Positions 6,070 to 55,889 of a DNA stretch of 64,000 bases are shown here, one piece after another. Both the position numbers and the translations under genes were made by a program. Every line of letters starts with the position of its first letter. The first letter of the stretch is position 1. Origin of the DNA: Strigops habroptila (lineage: Eukaryota; Chordata; Aves; Psittaciformes; Psittacidae); contig NC_044289.2 in NCBI RefSeq assembly GCF_004027225.2, forward strand, positions 5,941,761 to 6,005,760, in the 5' to 3' direction. Under the pieces are notes generated by a model, which was not told the DNA's origin, made no database searches, and worked only from the letters and a program-made list of their open reading frames with translations.

Positions 6070-6100
6070 GCCGGGCAGCCCCGCTCCCGCCCTCGCTCAC

Positions 6101-6347
6101 CCAGCAGCAGCAGCCGGTGTGTCTGCTTGTACTCCCGCTTCTCCGCCTTCAGCGTCTTGTCGATGCTTTTGCTCCGCTTCTTGTCCGCCCGCTCCTTGGC
6201 CACCAGGTCCTGCCGCAGCCGGTGCCGCACCTGCGGGTCTCCGTGATCCGCCGCGGAAGCGGGGATGTCCGCCTCGCCGCGGCTGCCGTAGGGCGCGGAG
6301 GGGTGCGCGGCGGCCAGGCGGGAGCGCAGGCTGTAGCACAGCCCCAT
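6101..6347 (-). CDS. GNAS: GNAS alternative first exon, XL-alpha-s type (partial gene)
   Basis: This exon encodes the first 82 residues, plus one base of residue 83, of an extra-large-type Gs-alpha. The ATG at 6347-6345 has a strong Kozak context (GCACCATGG), and an in-frame stop lies upstream at 6534-6536. The exon ends in the invariant THRLLLLG stretch followed by a GTGAGC donor at 6100. The split phase is the one used by all Gs-alpha first exons to join the P-loop exon. Residues 50-75 (ADKKRSKSIDKTLKAEK) resemble the end of the mammalian XL-alpha-s exon (EKKRSKLIDKQLQDEK). The start MGLCYSLR is that of the GNAL (G-olf) XL exon. Gly2, Cys4 and Ser6 suit N-myristoylation and palmitoylation, so membrane anchoring is inferred. 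The long proline/alanine-rich region of mammalian XL-alpha-s is absent. Neighbouring NPEPL1 and STX16 identify the locus as GNAS, not GNAL. Confidence 0.9.
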
Positions 6348-19200: not shown

Positions 19201-21358
19201 TTTCAGAATAGTTTTGCCATTTACCTGTGAGTGAGACAAGTTATTCACTGCTAGGATAATGCAGCAAGGTGGTGGGAAGAGATGGCAGAACTTATTCCTA
19301 ATCATACAAAGTTCAACAGAGATGAAGCAGGATTGAAATTGAACCACGTTACAAAAGATGAAAAGAAACAAAATTAGAAATATGAATTTCAGGAGGTGCA
19401 TTGGCTTAAGAAAACCCCAGCAGTGTTACACCGTGTGGGAAGATAAGGCGTGTTCTGGACAAAGAACTGCACAGATCTGGAAGGAGGGAGAACTAGATGC
19501 AGCCTTGGAAGAAAAGTTGAGGGTTTTTTCCAGAAGAATTTTCTTGCAGATAATTTCAGAGAAGGGGGGGACAGGGAGAGAGAGAACGATGGTGCTTGGA
19601 AAGGAAGAGTTGCTATAAAAATGTCATGTTCTTGGCACAGGGACACTAATTGCAGCTCACCCTCACCAGCAGTTGCATTTCTTTTTTCATAAAGGATTTC
19701 TTCCTAAAACAGCCTTACTCATAAGATGTAAAACTTTAGTATATCATTTGTATTTTCATTTGCCATGTCAAAGCTTTAGCATTCATACAGTTCTTGTACA
19801 TGAGGGTAACTTAGCATGGAAAGCTTTCCTGGAAAAGAAGGATAATTTTTTCTGTTGTTCTATTACAATAGATTTCTCAAGCTTACTTTAAATCCTCATA
19901 GTTTAGTTTTTAATTATCTGATTGAACTTGTATTCCTGTGCTTATTATTTTTGGAATCTTGTTTTGAGGAACCATCTGTACAATATACCTTTGGTTATTC
20001 TTTATACTTAAAGAAAATACCAGCTCAGTAAACTCTGATGGTGTACTGTATAATAGTACAACTTTGTAGATGAAACAATTGGACAATGTGAAATATATGA
20101 CCTAATTTATGAGTGTTGGGTTTTTTTTGGCACAACTTACCTATCATTGAAGGTAGCACCCCGTAACTGCATAATTAGCTTGGCAATACCAAGTACACTG
20201 AAGAGGTAGCTAAAATGTGTGTTTCTGTGTTTCATTAATAATCCAAACTCTCTACAGACCCACACCTTGAAAGAAAAATTAGCAATAAAAATTTGCTGTG
20301 TTACAAAATGTGCCAGTTCTTAGTTTGTTTTGAGCTGGCATTGTTTTAGCTTTGTATCTGAAGAAACAAAATTAGTATTTCAGGGTTCTTCATGTGCTAT
20401 TGATTAATTTAAATACAGGTTTTGTTAATTAAAGGTTATTAGCTCAGTTCTACTTTCATTGGTTAGGCAAGAAGCGCTCTGATTTCAATAAAAGAAGGTT
20501 TACATGTGGGGCAGAAGAAAACCCAGGAACTGTATTTCAGTTTGAACACGATCTGAGGATCAGGCAGTCTAAATCAGAAAACACGTATCCATCCTTCTAA
20601 AGCTTCAGATTCACTATGTTGATTGCTTAGCTTTTATTCCTACTGACACACTGGTGGATTAGAAGATGCCATCACCCCACTTGTAACTGGAAGTTAATGT
20701 GAAGAGCTGGGGTCACTTACTCTTGACCACACAAGCCTGTGGCACTGCAAGAAGCTGGTGCATCTCAGGCTGGAACCATCACCACTGGGCCACTTTATTC
20801 TTTCCTATCCTTGGTGTTGGCTTCAAACAGGAAGCCCTCCAGGGAAAGGGTCTAAGGACATTCTGGTTATGACAATTGAGAGGAAAGGAATGAAATACAG
20901 AATAATTTTCATAATAAGATAAATATTAAAGTTACTATCAAAACTAAGTAGTAGAGAAGGTCATGTTCCAGACTGTCTTACAAAGGCATGATACGGCTTA
21001 TGGAAAGATCAAAACCAGAAATGGCTTTGAAATGGAATACCTCATTCCCAGCATCAACAGTATTGCTGAATAGATGTAGGATTTCTTTTCATTCCATTAT
21101 CCCTCTCAATTAAAGCCACATCAAAGCTATACCATACTATACAAAGAACTTTGTTGCTATCTTTGTTGCCTATCTCATCCTGCTGATTTTCACATGGTTT
21201 CCAAGACCTACAGCTGATACAGTAAAAGGTAGAAGACCTCTTTCAAATTCGTGATGAGCAATACTGCATAATTACACACTAGTTACTAACTAGTTAAGCA
21301 TTGTGTACTAGACCTATATAAATACATCATCACCTATGTTCTTACAGACCTCCTTGAT

Positions 21359-22411: not shown

Positions 22412-22520
22412 GCAGCTCATTTTGCAAGTGGAAGCTGGCATGACGCTCCCATTTACTGTGTGTACGCAGCATTTCCTGCACAGCTCCTGCCAACATAGCA
22501 AAGTACACAGCTCTTCTTTA
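22412..22520 (+). pseudogene. Possible PIEZO-like relic exon with in-frame stop (tentative)
   Basis: The acceptor TTTCATTTTCAG is followed by a frame reading GSSFCKWKLA then a stop (TGA), then PANIAKYTALLYQL further on. PIEZO2 has CSSTWKIIVNPDLSWYHHANPILLLVMYYTLATLIRI at the corresponding place. The SS...WK start and the AN...YT order are shared. It would be a damaged exon. The match is suggestive only. Confidence 0.3.
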
Positions 22521-23456
22521 TCAGCTACAATGCTCTAAGAGTGATAATTACATGACTAAACATGACACAAACCAAAGCACAGTTGCCACCTAATCCCTCT
22601 TAAAAATGGAGGTGGTCGTGTTGTAATTTCACAGCCTTGGGGAACACAGAATCGTGAAGGCAGCTTGCCTGCCACTCATGGATCAGTACTCGTCAGCCAT
22701 ACACGGGCTGTAAAAGGGACTTATTTCCCTTAGTATTACCTACACAAGCAAACACGAATGATTCTTTCTCAAGGTTGGGTTGTTGGGTTTTTTTTGCAGG
22801 AATGGAGCCAAGGAGGGAGTGAAACACATCTGATTTCACAGCAGGGGCTATGTCCACTGACTTTTTGACCATTGCTAGGCAATATATGATTGAAAGAGGA
22901 AGTTCAAGTGCCAGATGAGCTCCAAAAATAGAACTTCACTTGCAAACTTCTTTTGCAAAAACTTTATGATGATGAAGAGCATACAAATAAAACATGCTTG
23001 TCTGGTCAGTTAAGTCTATCTAACCTGACTATGCAACACACTAACTTGTTATAATTTGTATAAAGTTTGCAAGTAATTTTAAGGTACTTTCCAGTGTCAC
23101 ATCTGCTTCCTACCGAAAAGGGACAATAATGGCATTTGGAAGAGAAAATGAAAGGCACAGGGACTGCATACACAAACTCTTAAAAGTCCCAGAGACCATG
23201 ACCAGAAGGGCCAAGAAACATATTTAAAAGGTGCTGCTCCCTGGTTCCCTAAAGAACTATCTGTCCTACCTCATCCTCACAGACATGCCAAATGAAACTT
23301 TCGATACCCATTTATTTGGTGCAGACACACAATGTTTTTACTTTGGAGCTGATTAATCCTTAATTTTGCTTTGCACAAGAGAATCAAAAGGGGTAACATA
23401 GCACATAGCTTTTTTGGCATGTCTAACTTTGATGCCCAGTGAAATTTAAATGGCAG

Positions 23457-23720
23457 TATTTCTTCCATTGTGTTTCTGTTGCCTTGAAGGTTTGGAGCAT
23501 CACACATTACAGTTGTTTGGCTTTTGTTCTGCCGATTTGGTCCTGCATCATTTGGATGGCTCGTGACCAGAGGCATAATGCTTTGCGTAGTTCCCCTATT
23601 CCTTCCTGCTTATGGGAACATCCTGCTTGTCCTAAGTTTCTTTTCAAGGCTAAATATCTCCCCAGAGTAATTCTTCCCTACAATCCCACAATCAGCTCTC
23701 ATCAAGTTTGGCTTAAAACC
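23457..23720 (+). pseudogene. PIEZO-like relic exon (VWSITYHS block), frameshifted
   Basis: The acceptor at 23455-23456 is followed by an open frame with ALKVWSITHYSCLAFVLPIW and then CIIWMARDQRHNALRSSP. This matches the PIEZO2 block MMAWSITYHSWLTFVLLIW followed by SCTLWMIRNRRKYAMISSP, with about half the residues identical. Near 23600 the homology moves to another frame: PLFLPAYGNILLVLSFF matches PFMVVYGNLLLILQYIW. So there is a frameshift inside the exon. A further weak match (NISPE, stop, then FFPTIPQS) fits PIEZO1 RPELPTTLGPVS. This block corresponds to PIEZO1 residues around 430-510. Confidence 0.9.
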
Positions 23721-24582
23721 ATACTGACTGCCAAGCACGCCTCTTGGCATGGAGGTCGAATTCCATATATTCTCATTACCTAGTTAGGTGAACAGGCCTT
23801 TTAGAGAAAAATAAAACTGTATTTTTATTCTTGTGCTGTACTGTACTCTCCCTCAACCTGCAACACCCAGCACCATGCTTGGAATGATACGAGGAAGAAA
23901 CCAAAATTATTTGGCAAAGGCATCAGTGAAATACATGCATGGTTTGGTGTGTATGCTTTCAGCCTCTGAAGGCAGGCCACACTCAAAGTCCAATTCTTGT
24001 TGTTGTTAAAGCCTAGGAGCTTGTTCCAGACCTACTACTTTATCGTAGCACAAGAATTTGGCTTGTAAGAGAGCCTGGAGTGGTGAATGGCAAGTCCTGG
24101 AGCCAGCATGGGAGAATGCTGTGGCATAGGAAACACTTGTCTTTTGATTTGTCAAAGACACTTCAGCGTGGGACACGGAGCTCAGAGGGAGTTGTGCTCT
24201 ACAGCCAAGCTAAACTTTCTTCTTCCTAAGCTAACTTAATTAACTGTCAGGGAAAACAGTCATTTGTTGTTACTGAAAAGTACAGCAATTAGACTTTGCG
24301 CCCCATTTTGTGATAATGCTCAGACCTTACAAAGTTCTGTGCAATACTGACACAAAGCAACTCTTGCCTCCAAAGTCTTTGCAACCCAAACTCACCAATT
24401 TATATATATATAAGATACAGCCACTGGGACATACATCCCCTCTTAAGTATGCTAGTTTCTTAACTTGTTTAGATAGTTTGTGAGGATCTAAATCTCTATC
24501 AATTACTAAACAAGGAAAGGTGTTTCTTGTGTACCTCTGTGAGTTCTATGGAAACTAAAGTGCAGGTGTGGTTTAATTTCAG

Positions 24583-24688
24583 ATCCTCTATGCATTCAGA
24601 GTCTGGCTGTTGCTAAGGCAACATGAGATTAAGAGACATATGAAGGATAGTCAAGAATTTCTGCAAGAAGCAATATTGATTGAGAACA
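24583..24688 (+). pseudogene. PIEZO-like relic exon, intact
   Basis: The acceptor TTTAATTTCAG precedes a stop-free frame reading ILYAFRVWLLLRQHEIKRH and so on, ending at a GTAAGG donor. PIEZO2 has ILFTITFWLLLRQHLTEQ at the same place, and the acidic/lysine-rich continuation is also similar. This segment shows both splice sites and a complete reading frame, so it has decayed less than its neighbours. Confidence 0.88.
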
Positions 24689-25480
24689 GTAAGGAAACAA
24701 CACAAATTCATCCTAGTGTGGTTCTCTGACCTTCTCTTCAGTGATAGTTAAGCATTTAGTCTTGCTAAACTAAAGCTGGAACCTGTTACCAAAATGCTGT
24801 AAGGATAGCTTTACCAAGTATCAGTTGTGCAAACATGAGCACTTGATTTGCAGACAGCTACCTGGCTTGTCTGTGCAGTTGCATATGTGCAAACAGCTCA
24901 GCCGTGTGTTTGCTTCACTGTTGTAATGAGAACAGACTTCTTGAACACCACAAACTTCATAACACCACGTGGGACAGAGATGGGTGATGCATTCATGATC
25001 ACAGTAGAAACATTCCATCGTTCTGGGAGCAACACAGAATATTGCAAGGACCATACGTGACTCCTGAAGCAGAAGTTTCTGCTGCCAAGAACATACCTTT
25101 GCTTCTACCAATTGTTCAGTTCTTTCTGGTTGCTTTTTTGAGTAAGTGAATTTTGGACAGACAAGTGGAGGCCGGCCATGTATAGTAGAAGAGGGCATGT
25201 TACCTGTACTCAGGAGCAGCAACCACTTTATGGGACTGCATTTTCAGTCTCTTGCTATGGGGCAATGTTTAAGGCAAGGTAAGTCACCTACCAAGAGAGG
25301 TGTTTGCAGCCGTAGGCAGGGATAACTCTAAAAAGGTGTCAAGACAGTATGGTGATAGCACCGTGTGCAACAGATTTGTTTTCTTCTTGTTACAGAAGGG
25401 GACAAACCACATAATGTTCTTCTAGAAATCCTTGGCTCTCTGCTTAAGGGAATGCTAATTAAACACCAGAGCTATTTCAG

Positions 25481-25576
25481 TGCTTCCATGTTTTTAATTC
25501 TCAGCTTCAATGGCAGCACAGTGGGATAGGAAATACTTCCGTGGTGCTCTTGCATGTCTGTGTGGCTCGGTATCAG
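25481..25576 (+). pseudogene. PIEZO-like relic exon with stop codon and 1-base deletion
   Basis: After the acceptor CTATTTCAG the frame reads ASMFLILSFNGSTVG and then TAG at 25527-25529. It matches PIEZO2 GGMFFFVSFEGKIVMYKII, so the TAG replaces a tyrosine. Just after EI one base is missing, and the match resumes in the next frame as SVVLLHVCVARYQ against YMVLFLFCVALYQ. The segment ends at CAG followed by GTAAGC, a good donor. Confidence 0.88.
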
Positions 25577-25689
25577 GTAAGCAGAAAAATAAATTAACAG
25601 CATCCTTTAGCACAGATTTTCAGAGGCAGTAAACTGTCACATGTCTCAAATGTTGGGGGGGAAAGAAAAAGTTTCTGAAGTTGACTTCA

Positions 25690-25749
25690 GTTCAGTGGAC
25701 GCCATTGGGGGACTCTGGGGGTGCAATGACTGTTCTACCCTGCCTCAAG
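25690..25749 (+). pseudogene. Possible PIEZO-like relic exon (GLWQN block, tentative)
   Basis: A frame reading AIGGLWGCND ends near a CAAG/GTAAGA donor. PIEZO2 has NFPGLWQNMTG in the following exon. Only GLW and N are shared, but the position between two secure segments is correct. Confidence 0.35.
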
Positions 25750-26275
25750 GTAAGAGACTTATCTTAATAATTGAAAGATTGCTGGAACACTGTCATATGA
25801 GGTCCAAGTAGTACCAAGGTCTGCTGCATATCAGGCTGTGTTGTTTGCCAAGAGAAGGAAGTCCTTGCAGTATTAGAAGGATTTGTACCAATTGGGTTTT
25901 TTATGGAAAACAGAGCTGCACTAATTTCCATTCTTCTGTTTTGTTTGGTTTTCTCTTTTATAGACAACTGAAATATACTTGCCAGTTGGCTAGAAATTGT
26001 TTGAATGACTTCTGGTTCAGTCAATGGGCTAAATAATCCATAATCCATTATTTGCATGGGATAAACAGGGTGCAAAAGATTCTTCAAAAATCCTTTTTAG
26101 ATCCTTGTGACAGCAAATGGAGGAGAGAGGAGATTTATGAAACAATATTTTTCTCAGCTATCTTAGTGCTTAGTTCTTAATTCACTTTGCTTTAGGCCCT
26201 TTCCCCCTAGGACCCTTATTACACAATTCCATAAACAGTATTCCTTGAAATTACCACTGGCCCAAATTCCTTTAG

Positions 26276-26351
26276 TTTTTGTTGTTACTGCAGTACTACG
26301 AGGAGGATCTTTCTACATCATGATATCGGACATGTTCTGGGCTGGGAATGG
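26276..26351 (+). pseudogene. PIEZO-like relic exon (EVSLFNYVFLISWA block, tentative)
   Basis: The acceptor-like CCTTTAG precedes FVVTAVLRGGSFYIMISDM followed by FWA. This aligns without a gap inside the core with PIEZO2 IIWVTVKEVSLFNYVFLISWA (S, W and A identical, most others hydrophobic). The placement in the series is right. No donor was assigned. Confidence 0.5.
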
Positions 26352-26541
26352 GCGATCCAGTTCTCACTGGGCTCCTGTTCCTAAAAATTGCCCAGAGAGC
26401 AATAAACACAGTTTTGCTTCCTAGCAGAGGGAAGCACAGCATTTTAGACTATGAGTTTTGACTGTCCTCATCTTTCTCAGTTCTTCTTGCTTACTGTGAC
26501 ATTTATGATTTCTTTATGCCTGAGACCATTTTGCACTGATC

Positions 26542-26748
26542 TTGAAGAACCACATAGTTGTTTTGAGGCTAATGGCATTGGAGATGACAGTGTATTGCTA
26601 TCAGCATGTCTACTGGGTTCAAAACCAGCTGCCACCACTCCTGACAGTGATTGTATTTGAGAGTGTTACTCTGGAGCACTGGGATGATGAGTTACTCTGT
26701 CGTGTCAAACATTTTCTCAGCTAAAGATTTTACAGATTAGGATTGGAG
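26542..26748 (+). pseudogene. PIEZO-like relic exon with in-frame TAA
   Basis: The frame LKNHIVVLRLMALEMTVYCY, continuing through VFESVTLEHWDDELLCRVKH, aligns along its length without gaps with PIEZO2 LRNNLLMLAILAFEVTVYRHQ and its continuation to DDGLINCAKYFVNYFFYKFGLE. A TAA at 26722-26724 interrupts it just before RFYRLGLE. A GAG/GTGAGG donor follows exactly at the PIEZO2 exon boundary. The true exon start is probably a little upstream of the given start. Confidence 0.85.
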
Positions 26749-27328
26749 GTGAGGAAATATAAGGAGAGAAGTACCCTTGGGAAGTGGGCATCGGGCCTCA
26801 GTTTGTGGAGGCATTAAACTCAGCTAAACAGAGGCCAAATGCTCTGATGCCATAAGCATACATAACAGCATTGACATACACAAGTCATCTCTTCCCTCGC
26901 TCTGTCCTCCAGTGATACCAGACGCTGCAGGTGCACCCTGTGCTCTGAGGGTTGCACAGCAGGAGGAGGCTTACAGTGTCTGGTGTTCTCATCAATTCTC
27001 AGGGCTATAACCATCTTGTGCAGAGAAACAGAATATTGCTTTTAGTGTTTCACTCTGTGAAGAACAGCATCACTTGCTGACTTCTATAAGCACAGCTCTC
27101 ACTAACAGGGCAAATTTTTATCTGTATAGTTATACTGCTTTATTTATACAAGTAAACTCCAAGTATAGACACTCTTATTCCAGGAGTATTTTTCTTTTTA
27201 ATCCTTAAGTGTTTCTTAAAACTGTTCTCAAGCTGCACAAACCAAGTCAGGATAATTTTCTAAATGACAGTACATTGTAAACCACACAGCATGCCTTCTT
27301 GTTTGCTTGGCTTGCTGTGCTCTTGCAG

Positions 27329-27534
27329 ATGCGCCTCACTGCTGCCATCAATGTTGCACAGCACCTTATGGATTCCTATGTGCTGCTCCATGTCTGTTGG
27401 GCAATCTATCTGCTCTGGAGCCAGAGGAGAAAAGCAGTGGCTGAAGTCTGGCCAAGATATTGCTGTTATCTGGCCCTCATCATGGCCTTCCAATATTTGC
27501 TGCATCCTGGCCCTCCCTCCTGCTCTCTGCAAAG
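27329..27534 (+). pseudogene. PIEZO-like relic exon (best conserved), frameshifted near its end
   Basis: The acceptor CTCTTGCAG is followed by INVAQHLMDSYVLLHVCW and RRKAVAEVWPRYCCYLA. These match PIEZO2 VNVIGQRMDFYAMIHACW and RRKAIAEVWPKYCCFLA. At about 27497 the frame slips, and CILALPPALCK continues in the neighbouring frame against CIGIPPAPCR, up to a GTTTGT donor. The long open frames on both strands here (27260-27761) owe their length to this old coding segment; the opposite-strand frame is a shadow. Confidence 0.95.
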
Positions 27535-28772
27535 GTTTGTGCAGTGCAAATTTTAGGTTTGGAAAACTGAGAACACAGAAAAGATCCAGAAAAGAATTGG
27601 GGAAAGCGCAGCAGAGGAGGATTGCAGGGTTGCTGCCTTTCAAGCTCTGCAAAGGGAGAGCACCTACATGGCAAAGCAAGAGCAGGAGGTGGATTGCAGT
27701 CAGTAGTGCCCCTCGCTGTTCTTTAAGCTCCCACGGGATGCTCGTTCAAGAGCAGCGGTAGGCTGGTCAGAGGACCCCACCAGCAAGTAGATGCAAATGT
27801 CCCTTCAAGCCTCAGGCCACCAAGGTTGTTTCCTTAGGTTTGGCTTTTATCTGCCCAAAAATCAGAAAAGCAGCAATGGACTGTGATCTGCACAATAATC
27901 ACCAAAATCTGGTCTTGCTCTGGAAGACATGCTTTTTCTCTGTTCCCTTTCAAACAGCCTCCTCTCCCTTTCTCCCCTGCATCCTAAGCACCCATGTCTA
28001 AAGAGGGGTTAATTACTCATGATAGAAAATCACCATCCAAATCAAAAGTTTTTGAAGCCTAAGCTGTTTGGCTGAAACCCACATACATAAAAGAATCAAT
28101 GGCATAGCTTCATGCTCCTGACCACTTTATGGCCACAATTAAAAAGTCTGGAAGCAGACATGTGCATGTGCAAAGGACACACAGTGCATTTTGGGAATCT
28201 GTAACCTAAGTGTGTAAAATAACAATCACTGGCATAGACTGTTCTCCCATCAGCAGCCTTTATTTCTCTCTACAAAGCAAAATGGGGAGTGCTGGACTGA
28301 GTTCCTCCTCTAGCTCAGCAGACACCTAAGCCCTCTCCCTGCGCACAAGCAGCCCAGACACTAGCATTCAATCACCAGAGAGTGGCAGAAGGTGGCAGCC
28401 ACTGCAATGAAATATTTAAACCGAGGAAGAATAAAGGGGGAAGGGGTATCCCAGAGCTAAGTTAGCAACTGGCAGAACTCAGCTAGCGCTAACTAATGAC
28501 AAGACCAGAAAGCATCTTGGAGTAGATCCTGATGAACTATTATATCCCCAAATCACCAGTTGCTAAGCACTGAACTGTATGCAGAGTATGCAGCTGTAAA
28601 CATCCGTTTTCCATTACAAAGGCTCTTGTTGATTTTTCCCAGGGCTGAAATCAACTCACTTAGCATCTCCCATCACTTTCCACCAGCGCTAGAGCACTGT
28701 GAAGGTAGGTACATGTTTATGGACAGCCACATTAGCTCTGCACATCTCACTAGATGCATCTTTTTCCTTTAG

Positions 28773-28818
28773 AGGAATGTCTGTGTTTGCATATCACAAG
28801 TACAGAAACTGGCTTGAG
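28773..28818 (+). pseudogene. Possible PIEZO-like relic exon (KWLYFPDF block, tentative)
   Basis: The acceptor TTTTTCCTTTAG and the donor GAG/GTATTG bound a frame reading MSVFAYHKYRNWLE. It could correspond to PIEZO2 FKGAYFNDNIIKWLYF. Similarity is slight. It is listed because it lies in order between two secure exons and has both splice sites. Confidence 0.3.
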
Positions 28819-29012
28819 GTATTGTATGTGATGAATATAACCCCTCTGCTGATAGCTTACCCATGGAGGGCCTCTCCCCTGCCCATCCATCCATTCCAAC
28901 CTGGTTGAATGGCTTTACCTGCCTGGTTTTGCAGAGACCTGAAGCTGCCGAGTGCAATCCTACAGCTAAAGCTAAACTCTGACGTACTTGTCTGGCTCTT
29001 CTGTCTTTCCAG

Positions 29013-29180
29013 ATGACTTCCAACTTCTGCTTTCTGTCTCCCTCCAGTGGCAAGCACCAAAGAACAAAGACAAAGCTTGCGTGAGAACACGGGCAGGATG
29101 CATCGTGTGCAGATCAGTCATGATTTAGACCTGGCTGCCCTCAGCCACTACAGTCCTATGCCAAATGTGGTGCACAGCAG
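29013..29180 (+). pseudogene. PIEZO-like relic exon, frameshifted
   Basis: After the acceptor TGTCTTTCCAG the frame reads DFQLLLSVSLQWQ, matching PIEZO2 DFMLLLCASLQRQ. From about 29090 the match continues in another frame as DLDLAALSHYSPMPNVVHSR against NLDAASFSQHNPVPDFIHCR. It ends at an AGCAG/GTACGA donor that corresponds to the PIEZO2 exon boundary. Confidence 0.9.
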
Positions 29181-30919
29181 GTACGAGCAAGGGAGCTGTT
29201 ACAGTGGAAAGAGAGGATCTTTTGATGCTGATTGAGGAGATTAAGGAAGAGGAAAGCAAATGCTACCAGCTTAGCTTTTCATTTACTCTGGTTATCCCAC
29301 TACAGAGTTTTCTAAAAGAATCAAGAACTGACTGCAGTTTGCTTGAGTCATTACCTCATGTGTGACTGTTTGACCAAGCTGTATCTTCAACATACAGTCT
29401 TAGCCTCAAGAAAGCAGGAGACACTCCCATTTCTCCTGACAGTTTGCTCTACCATCTAATGACTTTCTCCCTTTAAATAATAAAATAACCCAGTGTTGTC
29501 CAGTTCTTCTCCCAGACAGCAATTACCTAGTATTACCAATCCAATAAAGTGCCCATGTCTTAGTTTGGAAATAACCTAAACACCATCTAGTTACTTGGAG
29601 CCAGAATATCAGAAAACAGGCTTGATATCCCCCATGATACTTCAAAACAACATATTATATAAAAAATTTTATCATTTCTAAGTATAGTTCATGCTGCATG
29701 GAAAACTTCCAAGCAGCACTATTCTCTATATACTATATCTACAATGAATAGTTGAAAATATTTATGAACTTTAAGCCATTCTCAAAAGCAGCATGCAATC
29801 TTTGAACTCCTTTTGCTTGATGGCAATACTGCCTTGGGATCACAATTCTGAAATTCTGAAAAGTGGAAGGGTTTGGGAAGCGCATTGTCACAATTCAGAG
29901 TGTACATTCAGAAAACCCCACCTGTGAGGACTGTTGGGAAGATGTGCCTGAAAACAGGCAGCATTCCCTTCCGTTTATCCCTGTGACCTATCCTTGAGCC
30001 ACAAGCTGTTAACCTGGCATGGTGGCTGCAACCTCAGAGGCAATGTCTTGTGTTCACCAAGAGGGTGTTTTTCTGCTAGAAGACACCTGTCTCTTCTGTC
30101 TGAAGGGACACCGTTTTGCAGCGAAGAGCGAATGGCTCAGTGCTGAGGTCAAGGCCATCTGCATGTTAAGGGTTTAGTTGATACCCTAATTGCACTGGTG
30201 CAAACAACTTGCATAAACACACTGTGTTAGTGTAAACTGGGATTGTCTCTCCGAGAAGCCCTGGCGCTATGACAGTATGTTCTGTAGATGTACCAGTGTG
30301 AAAGCCTTAAAATAAACAGAACATAAACAGAGCTCATCAGAATCCTTCACTGGAGATGCCTCTCTGCAGATAAGAGAAAACAAAGTAGTAGAACTTCCCT
30401 TCGAGACTGAGGGGAAGCATGTTAGATCTAGGTCTGCATAATGACCCTGCTCCATGGCCCAGCAGGGGTATAACAGGGTTGTCCTGGCCCGTGTTTATCT
30501 GCTTGGGCACTACACCACCATTTCTTGGTGGAGCATCGCTAGAGACAGCACATGGGCTTTTCATGTTGGAATAATGAGACACATTGATTTTACAGTTAGG
30601 ACTGAGTGAAGCAGCCTAAATGCCTTTGTGGGTGAACAAAGATTGATCAAACATTTCACGTTATCTGCGACAGAATCTCACAGATGTTTCCTTGCAGAAA
30701 CCTTAAGCAGAATACCAAACGTTTCAAAATCACATACAAAGCTGGTCCAGAGCCAAACCTTTACAATGTTGTTTTGTGTTTGCCTATAGTATTGCCTGTG
30801 CCTGTCAAATCCGCTTCCTGTTTTGGATATTAGATCTTGCAATGGAGAGCTTCCAAATACTAGCCAGGTCCAAAGTAAGCTGTGCTCTGCAAAAATAATA
30901 CTGATAATATCAGAAGAAG

Positions 30920-31090
30920 TATAAATGGTCAGATGAATAATTGTCTCTTTATTATTTCCTGGCTTGCAAGCTTACATGTGTTCATAGGAGGGGGCAATTT
31001 TAAAAGACATATGCTAAATTCCTGCTGGCCAAAGATACTAAAGCCTCTGTTACTCTCACAGTCTTTACATCTTTCCAACAAAATATGCAT
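30920..31090 (+). pseudogene. PIEZO-like relic exon (HNSCW block)
   Basis: The frame NNCLFIISWLASLHVFIGG followed by HMLNSCWPKILKPLLLS matches PIEZO2 YNVFVITMKNILSIGACGYIG followed by LVHNSCWLIQAFSLA. NSCW is identical and the spacing is close. Splice sites were not assigned with confidence. Confidence 0.7.
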
Positions 31091-31451
31091 TTAAGACCCG
31101 TCCCATCTCTTTTGATATTCTTACAATGGGCTTTGGATTAGGTGGCTATGTTATGAAACTGCTTGTGAAGTACAATTCAGAAAGCACGTTGGTGGGATAT
31201 CAAGTCTTATAAGAAAGACTGTGGTAGTCAGATGGGAAAGAAAGTCATGTGTGCGAATGTGAATGTCCATAACAAACAAATGGCTGGCAATTTAAACACC
31301 AGACCTACAGCCAGTGCCTTCTTGGGTTTAGTTTTAATCTTACATCTTTGGGAAAAATACTTCCAGATTTGCAATCTGAATTTGTTAGGGCTGGTTTGAC
31401 AGGAAATAAAAAAAGTTGTAAAATACAATAGAATAAAAGTATTTGACTAGT

Positions 31452-31466
31452 GGGGGGGGGGGGGGG
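31452..31466 (+). repeat. Poly-G run (15 G)
   Basis: Fifteen consecutive G bases. Runs of this kind often vary in length and are prone to assembly error. Confidence 0.95.
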
Positions 31467-31807
31467 AAGTAGACTAAAAATTAACATTTCTCATTTCTTC
31501 AGTAATTTCTAAATCAAATCTGAGTTTTCTGGCCATTTCTATAACACTGAAGTTGCAGATTCTATGCCACAGAGTGGTGACAAGGACAGTGTTTGTAAGA
31601 CATTGAATTCAGATCAAGTGCACACCTAATTTAGAGCAGTTATTGCCTTAATTTGGTTTTCAACCAATAGGATGATTGGTTGAAATCTGAGAGTTTGAAG
31701 CAAGCCTCTACCCCTTCCACCAGAGGAAGAGCAGCATCTTCAAGATGCAGGTAAAACAGCAGCATCATGTTGTGTCTCTGTTTGTGCTCTCTCCTTGGGT
31801 TCTACAG

Positions 31808-31859
31808 AAAAATGATGGCAAAAAGAAGCGGTGGCAACCCTGGCAGAACCACACCTCGG
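31808..31859 (+). pseudogene. PIEZO-like relic exon, intact (WQPW block)
   Basis: The acceptor TTCTACAG and the donor GTAAGT bound a stop-free 52-base segment reading KNDGKKKRWQPWQNHTSG. PIEZO2 has KGKKKQWWRPWVDHASMVRSG here. The last base is the first base of a glycine codon, and the next relic exon begins with the other two, so splice phase is preserved between them. Confidence 0.9.
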
Positions 31860-32541
31860 GTAAGTTAAAAGCCAGCGAGCTGTTACTAGTGGGAAAGATT
31901 ATGTGTAGAAGTGGAAACAACACACCCTGATGGAGACGTGTCTCTGCACACAGCCATGACCCACAGGAACAAAAACCCTGCTTCTGTCCAATAGCTGCAC
32001 CAAGACCCACCCTCATTTAAGGGGGGTGTATGTATTTTAGCAAGATGTGTACGATTTTCCACTCTGTCCCTCCCAAACTTTACTGCTGCCCAACATACTT
32101 CAACGTACATGGAAAATTATTTTCTTCCCAGATGTTCCTATGTAGACCTCAATAACAGCCTCAAACTATATTAAAATTACATTAAGATACTAATAAGGAG
32201 AATAAAAACATTAACTGTATGTTCCATTACGCTATAGTTAACTTGTGCTAAAAAGTTAAGCATATGTACTAAGATGTCCAACAGCACATGCATCATTCAC
32301 GGGCAGTTCCTTTGGATTTTGAGAATTGTCTTTCTAAATCATCTACACAGCTCTGAACTCCACTGGGTATTTTTAGGTTGTTTAGTGATTTGAACTGGTT
32401 GTTACCACCTCTTCGAGGCTGATTGTGAAGAGGAGGATGACCCGGGGCACACAGGAAAGCACAGGTGGGGTATTTGCCACTTGGCAAGAGCCTTCCATTA
32501 TCTCTAAAATGATCATTGTCTATTAATTTTTTTCCTGATAG

Positions 32542-32588
32542 GTTCAGACATGTTCAAAACAACACCATTGAGCCAGGATGGTGGAGAA
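32542..32588 (+). pseudogene. PIEZO-like relic exon, intact, phase-matched
   Basis: The acceptor TTTCCTGATAG is followed by GT-TCA-GAC, completing the split glycine from the exon at 31808-31859 to give SGSDMFKTTPLSQDGGE, and then a perfect GTAAGT donor. PIEZO2 continues SGDYYLFETDSEEEE. Sequence identity is modest. The exact phase match and splice sites are the main support. Confidence 0.65.
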
Positions 32589-33430
32589 GTAAGTGGAGAT
32601 GAAGCAGCAGCAAAGATAGAAGCCCTTGCCTGCTTCCCAGCCTGGAGAGCCATTCGTTAGCTGCAGCAGATCACATCCCTTCCCCATCAATTCAGAGGCT
32701 GGCCAGTAAATGAAGCTCCTGTTACGATCACTGCCAGTGACTGAACAGGCAAGAAAATAATAAAAAGTAAATCCAACTGTTACAATAGGCATGTGGTCGG
32801 TGCAAAAAATCTAAATAATAAAATAATAGCACTTAATAGTTTGCAGTTTTTTAACTTGCTCCAAGAAGCGTTTGAGTCACATATGAACTGAAAAGATGGT
32901 GTAAATCAGTTGTCCTAAATCAGCATTACTTCCTTGACAGAGCTTGACAGTACCAGTTGTGTGTGTCTTCAGATGACAGCCTCTGCCAGGGCTGTCAGTA
33001 GCACCGTGTGCAGGAACTGATGCTCATCTTCACATTGTACATGGTCTTAAACTTTTGCCAAAGTAATCTGGCAACTGCTTAGTGCCCTGTTTGACACGTT
33101 AGCGTAAACAGACCCTTGTAATTCAGGGGGTTGCGGAGTAGGTGTAATTTAGATGATTTAACTCATATCCTTTTACTACCTATAAATCAGCCCTAGTATC
33201 CTAGTCTGTGATTATCAGTGACTGAGTCAGCAAAAGCTTTTATGAAAGCCCTGGTTAACATGCAGTTACTGCCTCGCACCAGCAGTTCTTAAGAGGTTCC
33301 ATTATGCCATCCGCTGATCTGATTTATTTAATTGTCTGGGTTACAAATGCTATTTAGCAGTCTTGCACCCTATTTCCTAGAAAATAAAAATGCTTCATTT
33401 CAACTCACTTTCCCTCCCCTCGTGGTTCAG

Positions 33431-33671
33431 GATATTTTATGACAATGAACTGGAGGAGCTGGAAAGGTTTTGCCAGTCTGCCTTGTGCTTTGCTTTGTAC
33501 TATGGTGTCCAAGTCAGAAACACTTTGCTGGTTTGTGATCATTCTGAATCACAGGATTTCTGCTTCAACTCTCACTTTAGTTGTGCCAGTTTTTATTTCT
33601 TTTTCAGAGTCACCTTATCAGTTCCAAGGCCAACAAAATCCTTCTGGATGACAGCTATTATTTATACACAG
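33431..33671 (+). pseudogene. PIEZO-like relic exon, two frameshifts and lost donor
   Basis: After the acceptor TGGTTCAG the frame reads IFYDNELEELERF (PIEZO2 MFHDDELEESEKF). Near 33515 it moves to another frame with SETLCWFVIILNHRISAS (PIEZO2 SEMVCYFVIILNHMVSAS). Near 33605 it moves again, with TLSVPRPTKSFWMTAIIYT (PIEZO2 MLSVPRPSRRFWMMAIVYT). At the expected exon end the sequence is CAG/CTACGT, where GTACGT would be a donor, so the donor appears lost by one base change. The next relic exon resumes precisely at the following residue. Confidence 0.95.
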
Positions 33672-34045
33672 CTACGTTTTTCTTACTACTGCTAAAGTTT
33701 TTCTTGGTATTGAAGTGAGTAACTTTGCAAACAAGACATTTTCAATGTCCTTTAGGATCGTTGTTGGAGTGGATTAGCAAGAACATATGACTTAAAATGT
33801 TTTGTTCGTGAACTGTTGACAATTCATTAACCTGAAAATGAGAACTAAATTGAGTAAAAAGAGAAAATATTTATTCACCCTAAAGTTTCACTGGCTTTCA
33901 GAGCAAGACTTGTTCTCCAGAGTTTCAAACCATTAAGAATGCCTGTTGGAACGATCCCCTATACTTAAAAGGTCTGCAGATTCCTCTGAGAATAATTACA
34001 GCCCCAAATTCCAGCTAATTTGGTTTTTCCCCCCCTCCCCCTCAG

Positions 34046-34233
34046 ATAACAGTAGTTGTCGAGTATTTTCACGGCTTGGATTGTTTCCCTGCACCACTGA
34101 ATTGCATTGTGCCATCACTGCAGAAGAACCATTTGTTCTGCCAAATACTGTTGGGATTGAGAAGGCAGCCGGCTACGTGCACTTTGGTCTCCTCCAGCTG
34201 CCTGCTTTGGTAGTTCACAGGTCAATCCTGAAG
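34046..34233 (+). pseudogene. PIEZO-like relic exon, one frameshift
   Basis: The acceptor CCCCCTCAG begins ITVVVEYF (PIEZO2 VAIVVKYF). About 20 bases on the frame changes, and LGLFPC, then VGIEKAAGYVHF and HRSILK follow against FGFFPW, VGVEKKEGYVLY and HRSILK. It ends CTGAAG/GTAAAT, at the PIEZO2 exon boundary. The shift lies at about 34064-34072. Confidence 0.95.
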
Positions 34234-34635
34234 GTAAATTTTTATACATTTGGAGAGGAACTTTTTTCCCCTAACTCTGCTGCGTGTTTGCAGTTAAATC
34301 AAGTGCTGCTGAATGCACGTTGTCTTAATTTTTGTTATAAATTCAAAATTTGCTTTTCTGCTCTAAGGAATACAGCCTCAGCATCTGAACTTTGACTTGG
34401 AGGTATTTCTCAGCTTTATAAAAGTCTAAATCACACACCTAAGAACTGCTGTTCCTGCTTCCCATGCTACACCACACAGAGGCCTGAATAAGAGATACAC
34501 TTCATTCCCTTTAGCTGACTGCTTTGCTCTACTACTAAGGACATGAAGGGAATTTCCTCTGATCTGCAGCCACTCTTCTTTGCTTGCTTTTGATTCAGTC
34601 TTAACAAAGAGGTAAAATCTGTTACTTTTAAGTAG

Positions 34636-34778
34636 TCACATCCCTGGCAGTGTTCAAGGCCAGGTTGGACACAGGGGCTTGGAGCAACCTGGTCTAGTGG
34701 AAGGTGTCCCTGCCCATGGCGGGGGGTTGGAACTGGATGAGCTTTAAGGTCCCTTCCAACCCAAACCAGCCTGTGATT
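34636..34778 (+). mobile_element. CR1 LINE 3' end within the PIEZO-like relic
   Basis: The blocks CAAGGCCAGGTTGGACA, GGTGTCCCTGCCCATGGC and AAGGTCCCTTCCAACCC are the conserved 3' region of CR1. The terminal ATTCTATG repeat has decayed. It lies in the interval where the pore-region exons of the relic should be. Confidence 0.93.
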
Positions 34779-35274
34779 ACCCCTTCCTGTTCCAATTCTA
34801 AATAATTCCTCCATGAGTATTTCAGACACATGGTCTCATTTCTGGCAGCCTCCCCTACGCTAAATTCTCTCTGGTGCCTGGAACAGCTGCTTGTTCCTCC
34901 AGCTTGGGCCTTTGAGATGTAAATAGTGTAATCCGACTTCAAGAGGCAAGGAAATATTAGCAGAATTTAATGTAAATATTGTATAAATCATCCCAAAATA
35001 GCATGGCCATGGGATGAGCCAAAGACACTAACTGAAAGTTAAACAGACTAAGTAAATATAGACTAAATATATTCCCCTCCTGTAATTGCCACTGGAATGG
35101 ATCCAGACAGGAAATAGGTTAAAATGCAGTCTTGTGGCAGTGATATTAAAAAGCCATTGGCCCGTTTGGTGACATTTATAATGAATTTTATGTACTCTAT
35201 ACATTTTTAATACATGCTGAGTTAAATATTATCAAATCTATAAAAAGATTATGGAAAAAATGTCTGGTTTCATA

Positions 35275-35350
35275 TGGGTGGACACTGCCTGGAACTCTCT
35301 CTGTGGGTTTTGTGTAAGAGAAGTGTTTGAAAGAAAACATGAAAGGGAAA
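35275..35350 (+). pseudogene. Possible PIEZO-like relic exon (pore-proximal, tentative)
   Basis: The frame WVDTAWNSLCGFCVREVFE aligns without gaps with PIEZO2 WTDTTLSLSSWICVEDIYA (W, D, T, C and V identical; the last residues are similar). The place just before the KYPRP exon is correct. Confidence 0.5.
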
Positions 35351-35724
35351 ACTAAAAATCCCCACACTGCAGTTTTGGAAAACTTGTCCAGAAGGCACCA
35401 TCCTTCAAGGCAGCAGAATTTCCAGGACACAAACCTCAATGGGGGCCAAGGAATGAGATGCATTAACTCCATCCCTTACACATGCAAATGGAGAAAAATC
35501 AATTTGGTTGTCCAGCATGACTTTGTGCAGCTTCTGATTCAGTGTAGTGTAAGTATAAAAGGACCCTTTTCCTCTATAGATGCTTTTTTTTAACAAGTCC
35601 CTAGCCCTGCTGTAGCAAACATGATTAATACTAGTTTCGTACGTAGGTACCAGAAGATAAAAGAAGCCCTGGCCGACCTAGAACAGTCCTGGAATACAGG
35701 TGCTTGTCCTGATGTCCCAATTTT

Positions 35725-35832
35725 TTTGATTACATAATTTTTAATTACTTTTAATTTTTTAATTATTAACTAATTAAATATTTTTAATGACTTAATTTTT
35801 AAATAATTTTTTAAATATTAATTTTAAAATTG
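35725..35832. repeat. AT-rich low-complexity tract
   Basis: More than 100 bases consist almost entirely of TAATT/AATTTTT motifs. It is not coding and contributes stops in all frames. Confidence 0.85.
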
Positions 35833-36188
35833 GGCCCAATCACAAGCAGAATGGGATTCCTGTGCTCTCACCTTCATCCTGTACCAAAGAAAGCAGTAGG
35901 TGGCTATGATGCTTCTACCCCAGACAGAGCTCAGCTACCCAGCAGAATTCAAACCAGAAGCTACAGATAAAATCTGACATACCCAAAGGGAACCAGAATA
36001 GGTCTGGGCTAATACAAGCCTCAGCTTCTTTAGCTGGATCTGTGTTTATACGATTTATGTGCTCACATTTTCATCATGAAAGGATGGAGAAAGCCCAAGA
36101 AGGTGAGCGGCTCCTGTTGTGCAATCCCTTTTCACAAGAACTTCTGAACCAGCTGTGGCAGATTAACTAAAACCTTATTTCTTTGCAG

Positions 36189-36345
36189 AAATATCCTCGG
36201 CCTATGGGGCAGGAGAGGAAAATGATTGAGAAATGCAGAAAGTGGAATTACTCTAATCTGTATTGTGTGGCCTCCTTTGCTTCTTCTGCCTCTTCTTCAG
36301 TCCATGGCAGGGGTGACCAACCAGCCCTGGGACATCTCTGGACTC
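36189..36345 (+). pseudogene. PIEZO-like relic exon (C-terminal), one frameshift
   Basis: The acceptor TTTCTTTGCAG precedes KYPRPMGQERKMIEK (PIEZO2 RYPQPRGQKKKKVVK). Around 36235 the frame shifts, and ICIVWPPLLLLPLLQSMAG and GVTNQPWDIS follow against ICIVWFPLLFMSLIKSVAG and GVINQPLDVS. This corresponds to the last transmembrane pore helix (the inner helix of PIEZO channels) and its exit into the extracellular cap. The match is among the strongest in the relic. Confidence 0.95.
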
Positions 36346-36831
36346 CTTAAAGGAGTGATTACAAGGGAGGGTGTTCCTCTGGCTGAAACATGACACACAG
36401 CTACAAGTTCAAAACTCAACCGCTAAGAGACTTTAACACATCACTACAATGTTAACTGAAGGCTGTTCAGACCCATGTATAAAGCAGCAGGAAGGAAAAT
36501 TACAGGAGAAAAGTAAGGGCGAATGAGAAATATGGATGTGGCGAGTCTCACTTTAGTTTCTTTCTGCCTTCCAATATCACAGATTTTGTTGTCTTTAGTA
36601 AATGCTGTCCCAGATGTGGGAGGAGGTATTTGCAAACACCCACCAACACGGGCTCCCCATAGTCAGTGGGAAAGCTTTTATCCTCCGGAATAACTTTTCT
36701 CTCTGTATTTGCTGTAAGGGACTAGGCTAATCCACCAGCACAGGCTACATGTAGCCCCAGTGCTATAAAGGCTGCACTTAGCGCACCCTGTCAGACTCCT
36801 CTCCAGGTCACCATTCTGCATGAGTTTTCAG

Positions 36832-36950
36832 CAGAGGACTTTGGTGCCTTTTGCTCAGGCAGCATACAACAGCCTGACAAAGCACTATGCCCTTCACCCA
36901 GAAAGCACTGTCCAAGAATGTGATACACATGAGTGCAACACTCCTGTATG
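36832..36950 (+). pseudogene. PIEZO-like relic exon (cap domain)
   Basis: After TGAGTTTTCAG the frame reads TLVPFAQAAYNSLTKHY and then ALHPESTVQE. PIEZO1 has SIIPFTAQAYEELSRQF and then DPQPLAMQF at the start of its extracellular cap. The reading frame stops soon after, at TGA near 36950. Confidence 0.7.
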
Positions 36951-36979
36951 ATTTAAAGATGTGCACACAGCAGAGTTGT

Positions 36980-37090
36980 GGTACTTGTGCATGGCACTAT
37001 ACTAGCTCCTCTACTCGACCTGGCCAACAAATTGCATCCAGCACCATGAGACACCATGAAGTGCTGTATCAACACATCAGAAGAGCGTGC
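36980..37090 (+). pseudogene. Possible PIEZO-like relic exon (cap domain, tentative)
   Basis: The frame AWHYTSSSTRPGQQ followed by HHEVLYQHIRR can be aligned with PIEZO1 LWRISPPSRAQM followed by TLRFTWNFQRD. Few residues are identical. Confidence 0.35.
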
Positions 37091-37770
37091 CCATCGCTAT
37101 CACACCATGTAAACACCTTCACAGAGCCAGTACTGACCAGCAAGTTAATCCATAAGCAGTGTTTTGTATAAGTCCATCTTTTCCTCTAGGGACTGAGCCT
37201 CCAGTAAAACCCTGGTGATGTGCCTGTTGCCAGTCCCCAGTTCAGACAGCATCTGGCAGCACCAAAATATGGTAAAAGATGCCATTGGTTTAATTTGCTC
37301 CTGCTAAAAACGCAGCAGTCAGAAATGGCCTTTCCTGCAGTAAGGTTTACAAGTTGAAAACATCACAGGCAGGTTTTTCCCTGACAGCATGTTGGCCTTG
37401 GACAATCCATAAAACACCAACTCCACTTCAACAAGCAAACCAGCAGATCATCCTTGTCCTCCCCTCCTGAGTCTGCCACAGAGTTCATAGCAATCTACTG
37501 TCCAGAGGACATTGGTTGTCCCCAAATCTGCGCTAGTCTGCTGCAGATCTCATCCCCCAGATTAGATGGCCATAGCACAGGAGCTTGCTAACTCACCTAC
37601 TGCTTATGTCAGCTTCCACTGGGCCGTTCTCATGTAATAGCAGCCCAGCTCCAAGGAGGAAATGAGAAGGAAATCTCTTAGGGGTGTGTATTAGCTCATG
37701 CTTAATTGTCAACCTCCTCTTCAAAGTGCTGGGCCCACAGCTGTAGCAATGTAAGCTCTACTTCCTGCAG

Positions 37771-37986
37771 AACAACCTAGACAAGCACCTCCCTGGCTTT
37801 ATGCTGCTTCTGGAGCCTGGTATCAGGTCCTCTGTGACACTGCTCCACCTCCTATGGTTGCTCAGAAGGCACCTGAGGAGCGTGAGGACATGTGGGAACC
37901 TGGAGCTTGGGAGCCCCCAAGGTTCAGTTCTCTGGTTATATACTGAGGTGATCTCCAGCAACCCAGCGAGCCCTGTGCTGCTTTGA
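37771..37986 (+). pseudogene. Possible PIEZO-like relic last exon
   Basis: The acceptor TACTTCCTGCAG opens a frame that runs 71 codons to TGA at 37984-37986. PGFMLLLEP fits PIEZO2 HSIMFEELP without a gap from the exon start. VRTCGNLEL then VLWLY fits VRETGELEL then LIFLY of the cytoplasmic C-terminal domain. Length and termination suit the PIEZO last exon. Identity is low, so this is moderately supported. Confidence 0.5.
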
Positions 37987-37989
37987 TAT

Positions 37990-40320
37990 CTTTGAGGGGT
38001 TGATCAGGGTACCCACAGCATGGAGGACCCAGCACCTAGCAGAGTTTTACAACACTCTGCAGCCACACATTGCCCAGTGCCCGAGTGTTTCTATTTGAAG
38101 TTGCTTAAATGGTGCCAGAATATACCTCAAGTGTAGTCACCTAAATCCACTGAAGTCAACCTCTGGTGTCTGGAACTGTTTCCTGTAAATACCTGCTGCT
38201 TTGTCACAGAGAGGGGACCGTAAAGCTAAATGCATTAGTCATTGTGGAGCGCTGGGTCAGGATGGCCATAGAGGCAGTAAGAACATCAGACAATTGCACT
38301 CTGCTTGCTTCAGGCCGGGCAGTGGTTAGTAGAAGTGGGTGGCAGCTGCAGAGACCAAATTCCAGCTTTGCTGCTCAGCACAGTCTTATTTCTGTTTGGT
38401 GACTATCCCACATACTGATTTCTGACACTATCTGCTGCTTCTAAGAAAGTTTTGGGATCTCCTCTTTTGTAGATTGCTTCCAGGTCTCATACCACGATAC
38501 TTCAGGGCAAATGCTCCAGCAGGTTAGAAGTGCCCAGCACCTGAAAGTAGGTAAGTCAATCCAGGTGGTGGCAGTGGGTCTTGAAGGAACTAAAATGCTG
38601 CTCATTAGGGGGTTAAGAAACATTGTGAGCTTAACAGCAATGATCCCAGTGCAAGCTCTGTGAAACGCAGAAGAATAATTTATGTGGTAAATACAGCTCA
38701 CAATCCATTGCCTTGTGTAGGTCCTGAGCTTCTGCTCTAGAGAGTAGACCTCTTAGCTAAACGGAAGGAAATAATAATGTACATTGGGAATAGCAAGAGA
38801 TTCTGTTACAGAATTGAAAGCAAAAAAAAAAAAAGCCTTGATTTTTATTTTGTATGTCTGAAACAGAGGCAGCATCAGACCTTTTTACTGTTAGGTGTTG
38901 GATTGATTTTATTTTACTCTGTGTAATGAAACTTAAGCTGGTTTTCAGGTTTTGATTTTTAATATTTATCCTGTTTGCTTTTCAGGTATTTCATATTAGA
39001 TTTCCTTAATATTAGGTATTTCTTTTGAAAGATGGCTTCTATTAAGTTCCTTCCAAATGAAATCCAGCAGAAGGATATGCTCTGAGACACAGCAAAATCA
39101 AAGAATATGGTAATCAGTCGTCAAAATTGAATTTCTTCTTTATCTGGGCTTGCTGCATTCAGGGAATAACAGAATTCAGCCTTATGGCACAAATTCACAG
39201 GCGACAGTTTTACGTAAAAAATCCACCTCATTTTGGCAAAACCCTAAATTTCAAAATTAGAATTGATTAATTTGAAGAGTGTTTCTAAAGGATGGAGACT
39301 GAAGACGTGATTTCAGAGCACTGAAATTAGAACTTTTTGCCATTAGCTTCAGTGGTCAGACTGAGTCTGTAATGAAAGTAACTCTTCACCAACGCATCTC
39401 CCTTAACATTTTTTGGTACCAGATAGTGCTTTACACTGAGTGTCTCGAACGACCAAAGGCAGAACTAATTTATATATAAATGTCTTAAAACTATGATCAG
39501 TGGACCAGGGAACCAGAACAGCAAGGGAGAAGCCAATATAGAAAATAATGAAGTTCTGGTTTTCTTTTTCTCTTAAAAAAAGTTACATTCTGCCTAACAG
39601 TCAAGTATTACCACAAAACCAGAAGGAAAAATGTTTCTTCTCCCTTCTGCATTGAGCTTTCCATGAAGTCTTTAGTCAAAAAGACTCATGCCTAAACCTC
39701 ATTGTTGGAACGCCATCTAAAACCTAGCACCAGTTCCCTCCAGAGATCACCTCTGAAACAGGGAAAGGTGTAATCCATCACAGCGCAGCTTGACTTTATC
39801 TGCAGAGCAGCCAAGAGTGTGTGCTGGGTGGGATTTATCACCATCAACACTCTGGTTGAGCCAAGAAATGTTTCCAAAGGCTGACGCTTGAACTGCTGGG
39901 CAGGGACCAGCACTGATTAAAACCTGGTCACTCTGTTCCCAGTTCTGCCACTGACATTACATAAATTGGGGCAAGTCATTTCCCATGGGTGTCCAAGCCC
40001 AACTAGCGCTTGTAAGATCCTTGTGACTGGCTTATACAGGAACAAATACTATGCATCCCTGATTACAGTTGAATCAAACAAATGAAGTGAATCAGCACAA
40101 GTTCTTCAGGACCTCCTGAAACATTCGGTATAAGCTGTTACTCTATTAGTAACATACATGTTTTCACATGTATGTGAGAGTTCTGAGAAAAGGAACTGGA
40201 ACAGAGTAATGATGTCGCACACAAACTTTTGGAGCACTCAGTGTCCTCAGAAGTGTAAATAACACCATGAAACACCACATGGGATATGTAAGCTGCTTTA
40301 ATAATAATAATAATAATAAA
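37990..40320. other. Tail-to-tail intergenic region, nothing recognised
   Basis: This stretch separates the end of the PIEZO-like relic from the end of NPEPL1. No exon or element was recognised. Both neighbours are transcribed toward it, so it should hold their polyadenylation regions. Confidence 0.5.

Positions 40321-41029: not shown

Positions 41030-55889
<14,860 letters not shown>

Follow-up and report, generated by a model that had tools for sequence, protein, structure and literature searches.

We analysed a window of 64,000 nucleotides from the parrot Strigops habroptila (contig NC_044289.2, positions 5,941,761 to 6,005,760; all positions below are counted from the first nucleotide of the window). 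On its + strand, between an exon taken for GNAS and the gene NPEPL1, lies a series of exon pieces that resemble the PIEZO channels and are interrupted by stop codons and changes of the reading frame (Table 1). We have little doubt that this relic derives from a third vertebrate PIEZO paralogue ('PIEZO3') and represents an unprocessed, probably unitary pseudogene.

The stretch 23457-37987 was translated in the three + strand frames and compared with PDB. The matches at E <= 10 were PIEZO chains for 10/10, 11/11 and 10/11 distinct sequences in the respective frames; the single non-PIEZO match was ThyX (E 0.53), and the matched chains of PIEZO1 and PIEZO2 stood in ascending gene order. Human PIEZO1 in a tblastn search gave ordered matches on the + strand, starting with residue 426 at 23469 and ending with residue 2283 at 37558, and elsewhere scattered chance matches with E about 1 or more. 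Positive scores of a PIEZO1 profile were confined to the + frames. For a PIEZO2-like protein of the turtle Caretta (P0123) we observed 19 tblastn matches at E <= 1, all on the + strand, within 23478-38515; across the four relatives tried, one match fell on the minus strand (Podarcis, 31425-31303, E 0.83). The best collinear chain in 21000-39000 joined 18 pieces and scored 803.8 bits, compared to 60.9 bits for the real minus strand and to chance-control scores that averaged 39.4 bits and peaked at 114.3 bits (100 dinucleotide shuffles, two strands each). These searches confirm the homology to the PIEZO family, in order along the length of the relic. With the relic exon 27329-27521 as query, the protein database yielded no candidate with three shared words, and an Rfam search found no match.

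The original prediction, made from the letters of the window, had described PIEZO segments in order and in the same orientation. The collinear chain, far above the shuffles, bears this out, and the four segments named as strongest (27329-27534, 33431-33671, 34046-34233 and 36189-36345) are all real. The predicted extent, 23457-37986, stands for the core of the relic; its ends do not, since the relic reaches 38515 and probably begins as far back as 21075. The two predicted in-frame stops, 25527 (TAG) and 26722 (TAA), were both found, as were the several frameshifts from which the gene had been called dead in this genome.

The seven in-frame stops (Table 1) were counted over 24 slightly overlapping stretches with 808 codons, excluding stops in the flank or insert parts of raw matches (27260-27328, 28934-29008). 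Six or seven frame changes, called where the adjacent residues of the relatives carry on in another frame, were located near 23598, 29100, 33476, 33600, 34069, 36240 and 37556. The relic is disabled, and the channel cannot be made from it. Splice signals are retained as acceptors before 24583, 27329 and 34046 and as donors after 31858 and 34233. Because the exon pieces are spread over 15 kb and splice sites are preserved, the relic is unprocessed and intron-bearing, and a processed pseudogene is ruled out.

Individual pieces differ in their support. The 84-bit match around the exon at 27329-27520 spans 27260-27568, its ends extending into non-homologous flank. The second half of 28886-29181 was matched by 11/11 relatives (E 1.6e-8 to 9.8e-5). 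Support for the exon at 21075-21230 is weaker than for the other pieces: in a restricted search it was matched by 3/11 relatives, Pelodiscus P0125 (E 7e-4, 21165-21236 only), Latimeria (0.002) and Mauremys (0.014). Missing exons were sought on the + strand in restricted intervals with 11 relatives at a threshold of at least 22 bits, and nothing was found for aa 540-880, 1832-2142, 2315-2368 or 2370-2548. Turtle aa 555-875 (320 residues) would need to fit into less than 1 kb. The 170 residues at the C-terminus, one of the most conserved parts of the aligned PIEZOs, were not found before NPEPL1 (aa 2370-2548 sought in 38450-41030). We did not accept as exons the weak matches at 22409-22503 (E 0.005 to 0.09, 3 relatives) and at 32508-32741 (Emydura E 9e-5, three others 0.001 to 0.01, one in a different frame), nor several weak matches before 21 kb that differed between relatives.

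Table 1. Pieces of the PIEZO relic and flanking genes in the window. Amino acid (aa) coordinates refer to Caretta PIEZO2-like P0123 unless named otherwise.
Feature	Coordinates	Strand	Evidence
First-exon piece of Gs-alpha-type gene (flank)	6099..6197	-	48% to aa 15-47 of the assumed human GNAS sequence, E 3.9e-5
Probable N-terminal PIEZO exon relic; stop TAA 21111	21075..21230	+	Pelodiscus P0127 aa 7-54, tblastn E 0.002
Exon(s), aa 380-477; frameshift near 23598; stops 23668, 23725	23478..23775	+	70% and 53% identity
Exon, aa 471-509; acceptor TTTCAG retained	24580..24696	+	56% identity
Exon, aa 507-554; stop TAG 25527	25395..25538	+	60% identity
Exon, aa 875-950; stop TAA 26722	26524..26751	+	46% identity, 71.6 bits; human PIEZO1 matches too
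Open exon, about aa 950-1013; intact acceptor cttgcag	27329..27520	+	part of 84-bit match
Exon(s), aa 1027-1107; insert about 28934-29008; frame change between 29098 and 29107	28886..29181	+	56.2 bits
Exon, aa 1348-1365; then ggtaagt donor	31805..31858	+	61% identity, 29.3 bits
Exon, aa 1366-1390 (LFExDxEEE motif); stop TGA 32391	32385..32459	+	52% identity
Exon, aa 1689-1776; two frameshifts near 33476, 33600	33429..33674	+	54.7 and 53.5 bits, two frames
Exon to aa 1838; acceptor cccctcag and donor gtaaat retained; frameshift about 34069	34046..34233	+	67% over 58 aa, 85.5 bits
Exon, aa 2139-2161	36002..36070	+	52% identity
Exon, aa 2169-2225; frame change between 36233 and 36253	36180..36339	+	61% and 69% identity
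Exon, aa 2235-2267 (cap region)	36808..36906	+	61% identity, 46.6 bits
Cap exon(s), about aa 2266-2321; frame change near 37556; stop TAG 37563	37472..37631	+	weak, 22-29 bits
Last detectable piece, aa 2362-2375	38474..38515	+	14/14 identical to Crocodylus
NPEPL1, exons of whole coding sequence (flank)	41033..55889	-	12 tblastn matches, aa 1-523 of the assumed human NPEPL1 sequence

A 142-residue stretch of the relic, searched against 5.8 billion proteins, gave 558 matches at E <= 1; the relatives described here are the best 120 of these 558. The best 16 were turtles (12) and lizards (4) with 59-62% identity, and next came a sturgeon (46%) and a crocodile (58%). Ranked lower were further lizards and also gars, frogs, lungfish, coelacanth, teleosts and a single marsupial (Petaurus), and no named bird or placental mammal was present among the best 120. 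Setting P0123 itself aside, the mean identity to P0123 exceeded that to human PIEZO2 for 118/119 relatives, computed over differing aligned lengths; the exception was P0137 (the sturgeon Acipenser), apparently a joined model. Both P0137 and P0021 (Coregonus) look like two PIEZO copies or types fused in one model. In the databases the third-clade relatives are mostly named PIEZO2-like or PIEZO2. All five PIEZO domains (including PF12166, the cap, and PF24871) are present in 108/120 rows and at least one is absent in 12, as counted from precomputed annotation of the whole relatives, not of the relic. Over the placed residues, the relic was 56.6% identical to Caretta, 54.4% to Crocodylus, 38.0% to human PIEZO2 and 36.3% to human PIEZO1. 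The sequence that we took as human PIEZO2 agrees with PDB 9vee along its entire length. In a search with PIEZO1, the best 120 of 2751 matches were mammals, the exceptions being the fish row P0021 and two rows without a name, P0072 and P0111.

The main tree was built from 36 rows and 733 columns: the relic, human PIEZO2, 28 third-clade proteins from the best 120 relatives and 6 PIEZO1 from the best 120 matches of the PIEZO1 search. Counting the relic, the third clade comprised 29 rows and stood apart from human PIEZO2 and mammalian PIEZO1 with support 100/100. The groups within it were ray-finned fishes (8), amphibians (5) and amniotes (14), with coelacanth and lungfish unresolved. The relic fell inside a 13-row sauropsid clade of crocodile, turtles and lizards (100/99), outside which the marsupial was placed. 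The same sauropsid set was recovered with a PIEZO1 guide (541 columns, 100/97), with a PIEZO2 guide (501 columns, 99/98) and after masking 41 guide positions that came from flank or poor alignment (694 columns, 100/98). At the 38 columns diagnostic of the third clade, where it is unlike both PIEZO1 and PIEZO2, the relic carried the third-clade letter 26 times, the PIEZO1 letter 2 times, the PIEZO2 letter 2 times and another letter 8 times; the respective counts were 14, 3, 1 and 10 for the PIEZO1 guide (28 columns) and 12, 0, 1 and 5 for the PIEZO2 guide (18 columns). The relic belongs to a third PIEZO clade, apart from PIEZO1 and PIEZO2.

Several features of these trees weigh against reading the relic as a third paralogue with a settled place. 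PIEZO2 was represented by the assumed human sequence only, PIEZO1 had no non-mammal row, and neither gene had a bird row; the relic row itself was positioned by aligning it pairwise with a guide. Under the PIEZO1 and PIEZO2 guides, coelacanth and lungfish fell with the ray-finned fishes (97/91 and 85/87), contrary to the species tree, and the PIEZO2 guide joined the relic with crocodile and lizards, apart from the turtles (87/84). A grouping with Crocodylus costs 0.27 log units (p 0.49) and is neither shown nor rejected. Moreover, the relic has a long branch of 1.05 (0.94 masked), about four times that of the crocodile, and because of it the exact place of the relic among sauropsids is unsure.

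Could a duplicate of the bird's own PIEZO2 or PIEZO1 have been recently inserted at the GNAS locus and then decayed? The general PIEZO similarity and the PIEZO2-like annotation of many relatives would agree with such an origin; we give it almost no credence, however, given 38.0% identity to human PIEZO2 versus 56.6% to the turtle third-clade protein, diagnostic columns that favour the third clade under three guides, and the outcome of approximately unbiased (AU) tests. These rejected the relic with PIEZO2 (p 6.25e-5, at a cost of 89.9 log units; also after masking, with p far lower) and with PIEZO1 (p 5.25e-6, cost 71.8). The third paralogue of the original prediction is therefore upheld by a separate clade and by both rejections: judged against human PIEZO2 and mammalian PIEZO1, the relic groups with neither. 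It is also very improbable that the locus is still active as a short or non-coding transcript, or that the lesions are assembly errors. Some exons are open and have good splice sites (e.g., 27329-27520), yet such a reading would have to accommodate 7 stops, six or seven frame changes, the missing blocks (turtle aa 555-875 and the C-terminus) and the long branch. It would also have to explain the columns identical in all three PIEZO types, of which the relic retains 165/274 with 109 changed (158/250 with 92 changed after masking).

With regard to the age of the clade, the trees held no invertebrate, shark or lamprey rows, which would allow the third clade, by root and age, to be a later duplicate of PIEZO2 within bony vertebrates rather than an early-vertebrate ohnolog. 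We regard this as unlikely. Because ray-finned as well as lobe-finned lineages are in the clade and human PIEZO2 is excluded from it with support 100/100, the split from PIEZO2 would predate the bony vertebrates, unless the root lies inside the third clade. Human PIEZO2 is located near GNAL, APCDD1 and VAPA on 18p11, and GNAS, APCDD1L and VAPB lie together on 20q13. Given this synteny, a relic beside GNAS fits a twin of PIEZO2 that arose in the early vertebrate genome duplication (2R), and the third PIEZO would then be a 2R ohnolog of PIEZO2.

In other vertebrates the copies appear to be whole, as open predicted PIEZO proteins that reach about 2,800 residues and measure about 2,500 aa in the best models. 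The pore glutamate E2133 (mouse PIEZO1 numbering) was present in 35/35 non-relic rows, 28 of them third-clade, in a column outside the relic row; E2495 was present in 27/27 third-clade rows reaching that column, and position 2496 was D in one eel. The roles of the residues at 2133, 2495 and 2496 are presumed here. To judge from their sequences, whole third-clade copies very likely work as PIEZO1 and PIEZO2 do, as trimeric cation channels gated by mechanical force.

In the lineage of this bird the gene lost its function long ago, with stops, frameshifts and exon losses building up afterwards. The bird neutral rate is about 2e-9 per site per year. Assuming neutral drift at this rate, the 165/274 retained columns (158/250 masked) put the loss at roughly 100 million years ago, an estimate that is both low and rough because counting was limited to recognisable exons. 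The date suggests that the gene died before living birds arose or close to that time. We infer a loss in all birds, which may have been a single event early in bird history.

Among mammals, Petaurus breviceps papuanus has a 2520-residue third-clade PIEZO model (P0211) with all five domains and a branch of 0.46; the gene was therefore present in mammals and was probably lost in placentals. In placental mammals the vacated NPEPL1-GNAS interval holds the imprinted NESP55/GNAS-AS1 region. We lean slightly towards a wider history in which jawed vertebrates began with a third PIEZO beside GNAS, the 2R twin of the PIEZO2 beside GNAL. The channel would still be in use in fishes, amphibians, turtles, crocodiles, lizards and at least some marsupials, birds and placentals would have lost it separately, and touch data on non-mammal PIEZO2, possibly including zebrafish piezo2b, may partly reflect the third channel.

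PIEZO channels underlie touch, proprioception and pressure sensing, and mouse and human have two PIEZO genes. A third paralogue that appears whole in turtles, crocodiles, lizards, frogs, fish and at least one marsupial, ancient and widely retained, contradicts the view of vertebrates as having two PIEZOs. If this is true, mouse, human and this bird lineage are without a channel present in other vertebrates, and results labelled PIEZO2 in fish, frogs and reptiles need sorting.

The flanking genes agree with the predicted position of the relic between GNAS and NPEPL1, as a GNAS-type exon and NPEPL1 were found on either side (Table 1). The G-alpha Pfam match of the Gs-alpha-type exon was under the cut-off (E 0.085); the exon is taken for GNAS by its position and by its letters KKRSK-IDK, presumably those of human XL-alpha-s. 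A long N-terminal reading frame of this GNAS-type first exon (5754-6533, minus strand) contains MGLCYSLR and ends KKRSKSIDKTLKAEKREYKQTHRLLLLG. We take the start of the frame to resemble the GNAL long form and its end the mammalian XL-alpha-s; because of this double resemblance, the XL-type exon may predate the GNAS/GNAL split.

Traces of mobile elements were also observed. The sequence ATTCTATGATTCTATG, which we take to be the 3' end type of CR1 long interspersed nuclear elements, occurs on the + strand in two exact copies, 13792-13807 and 49596-49611 (0.03 expected). These two ends agree with a bird as the source of the window, as do the placement of the relic among sauropsids and the open copies in turtles, a crocodile and lizards. 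The second copy is preceded by a reading frame, 48914-49525, that is presumably CR1-like, had no Pfam match and overlaps an NPEPL1 exon on the opposite strand (48822-48971). Between GNAS and the relic, a minus-strand reading frame at 7098-7529 with a weak match to a zinc-binding reverse-transcriptase domain (PF13966, E 5e-4, under the cut-off) is perhaps a piece of an old retroelement without long terminal repeats.

Among the matches listed in a literature search, titles and abstract openings mentioned no third vertebrate PIEZO clade and no PIEZO pseudogene at GNAS; the papers found to contain 'piezo3' are unrelated, judging by their titles. A 2024 review states that vertebrates carry two PIEZO genes (PMC11526382). 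Zebrafish, likewise a vertebrate with a third piezo gene, has piezo1, piezo2a and piezo2b according to PMC10801085. The piezo2a guide target printed there reads ATLIRLW, compared to ATLIRIW in human PIEZO2, and ATLIRLW is absent from the best 120 of 558 matches of the relic search. On this target we rejected piezo2a as the third-clade gene, and because it reads as PIEZO2, piezo2b is the candidate if zebrafish kept the third clade. The treatment of piezo2b as the piezo2 of zebrafish in PMC9901935 speaks against that assignment. The text seen of PMC12652723, PMC10801085, PMC9901935, PMC11395407 and PMC12346124 contains no piezo2b sequence.

Compared with the two established channels, the relic shares family and domain order with human PIEZO2 and with mammalian PIEZO1; it differs by its separate branch, by the rejected groupings and by its low identity, 38.0% to the former and 35-36% to the latter. 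The PIEZO2-like proteins of turtles, crocodiles, lizards, frogs, fishes and Petaurus (e.g., P0123 of Caretta and P0138 of Crocodylus) belong to the same clade as the relic and have their exons in the same order, with 51-57% identity over placed residues for the sauropsid rows. These relatives are open predicted proteins, whereas the relic is broken and truncated.

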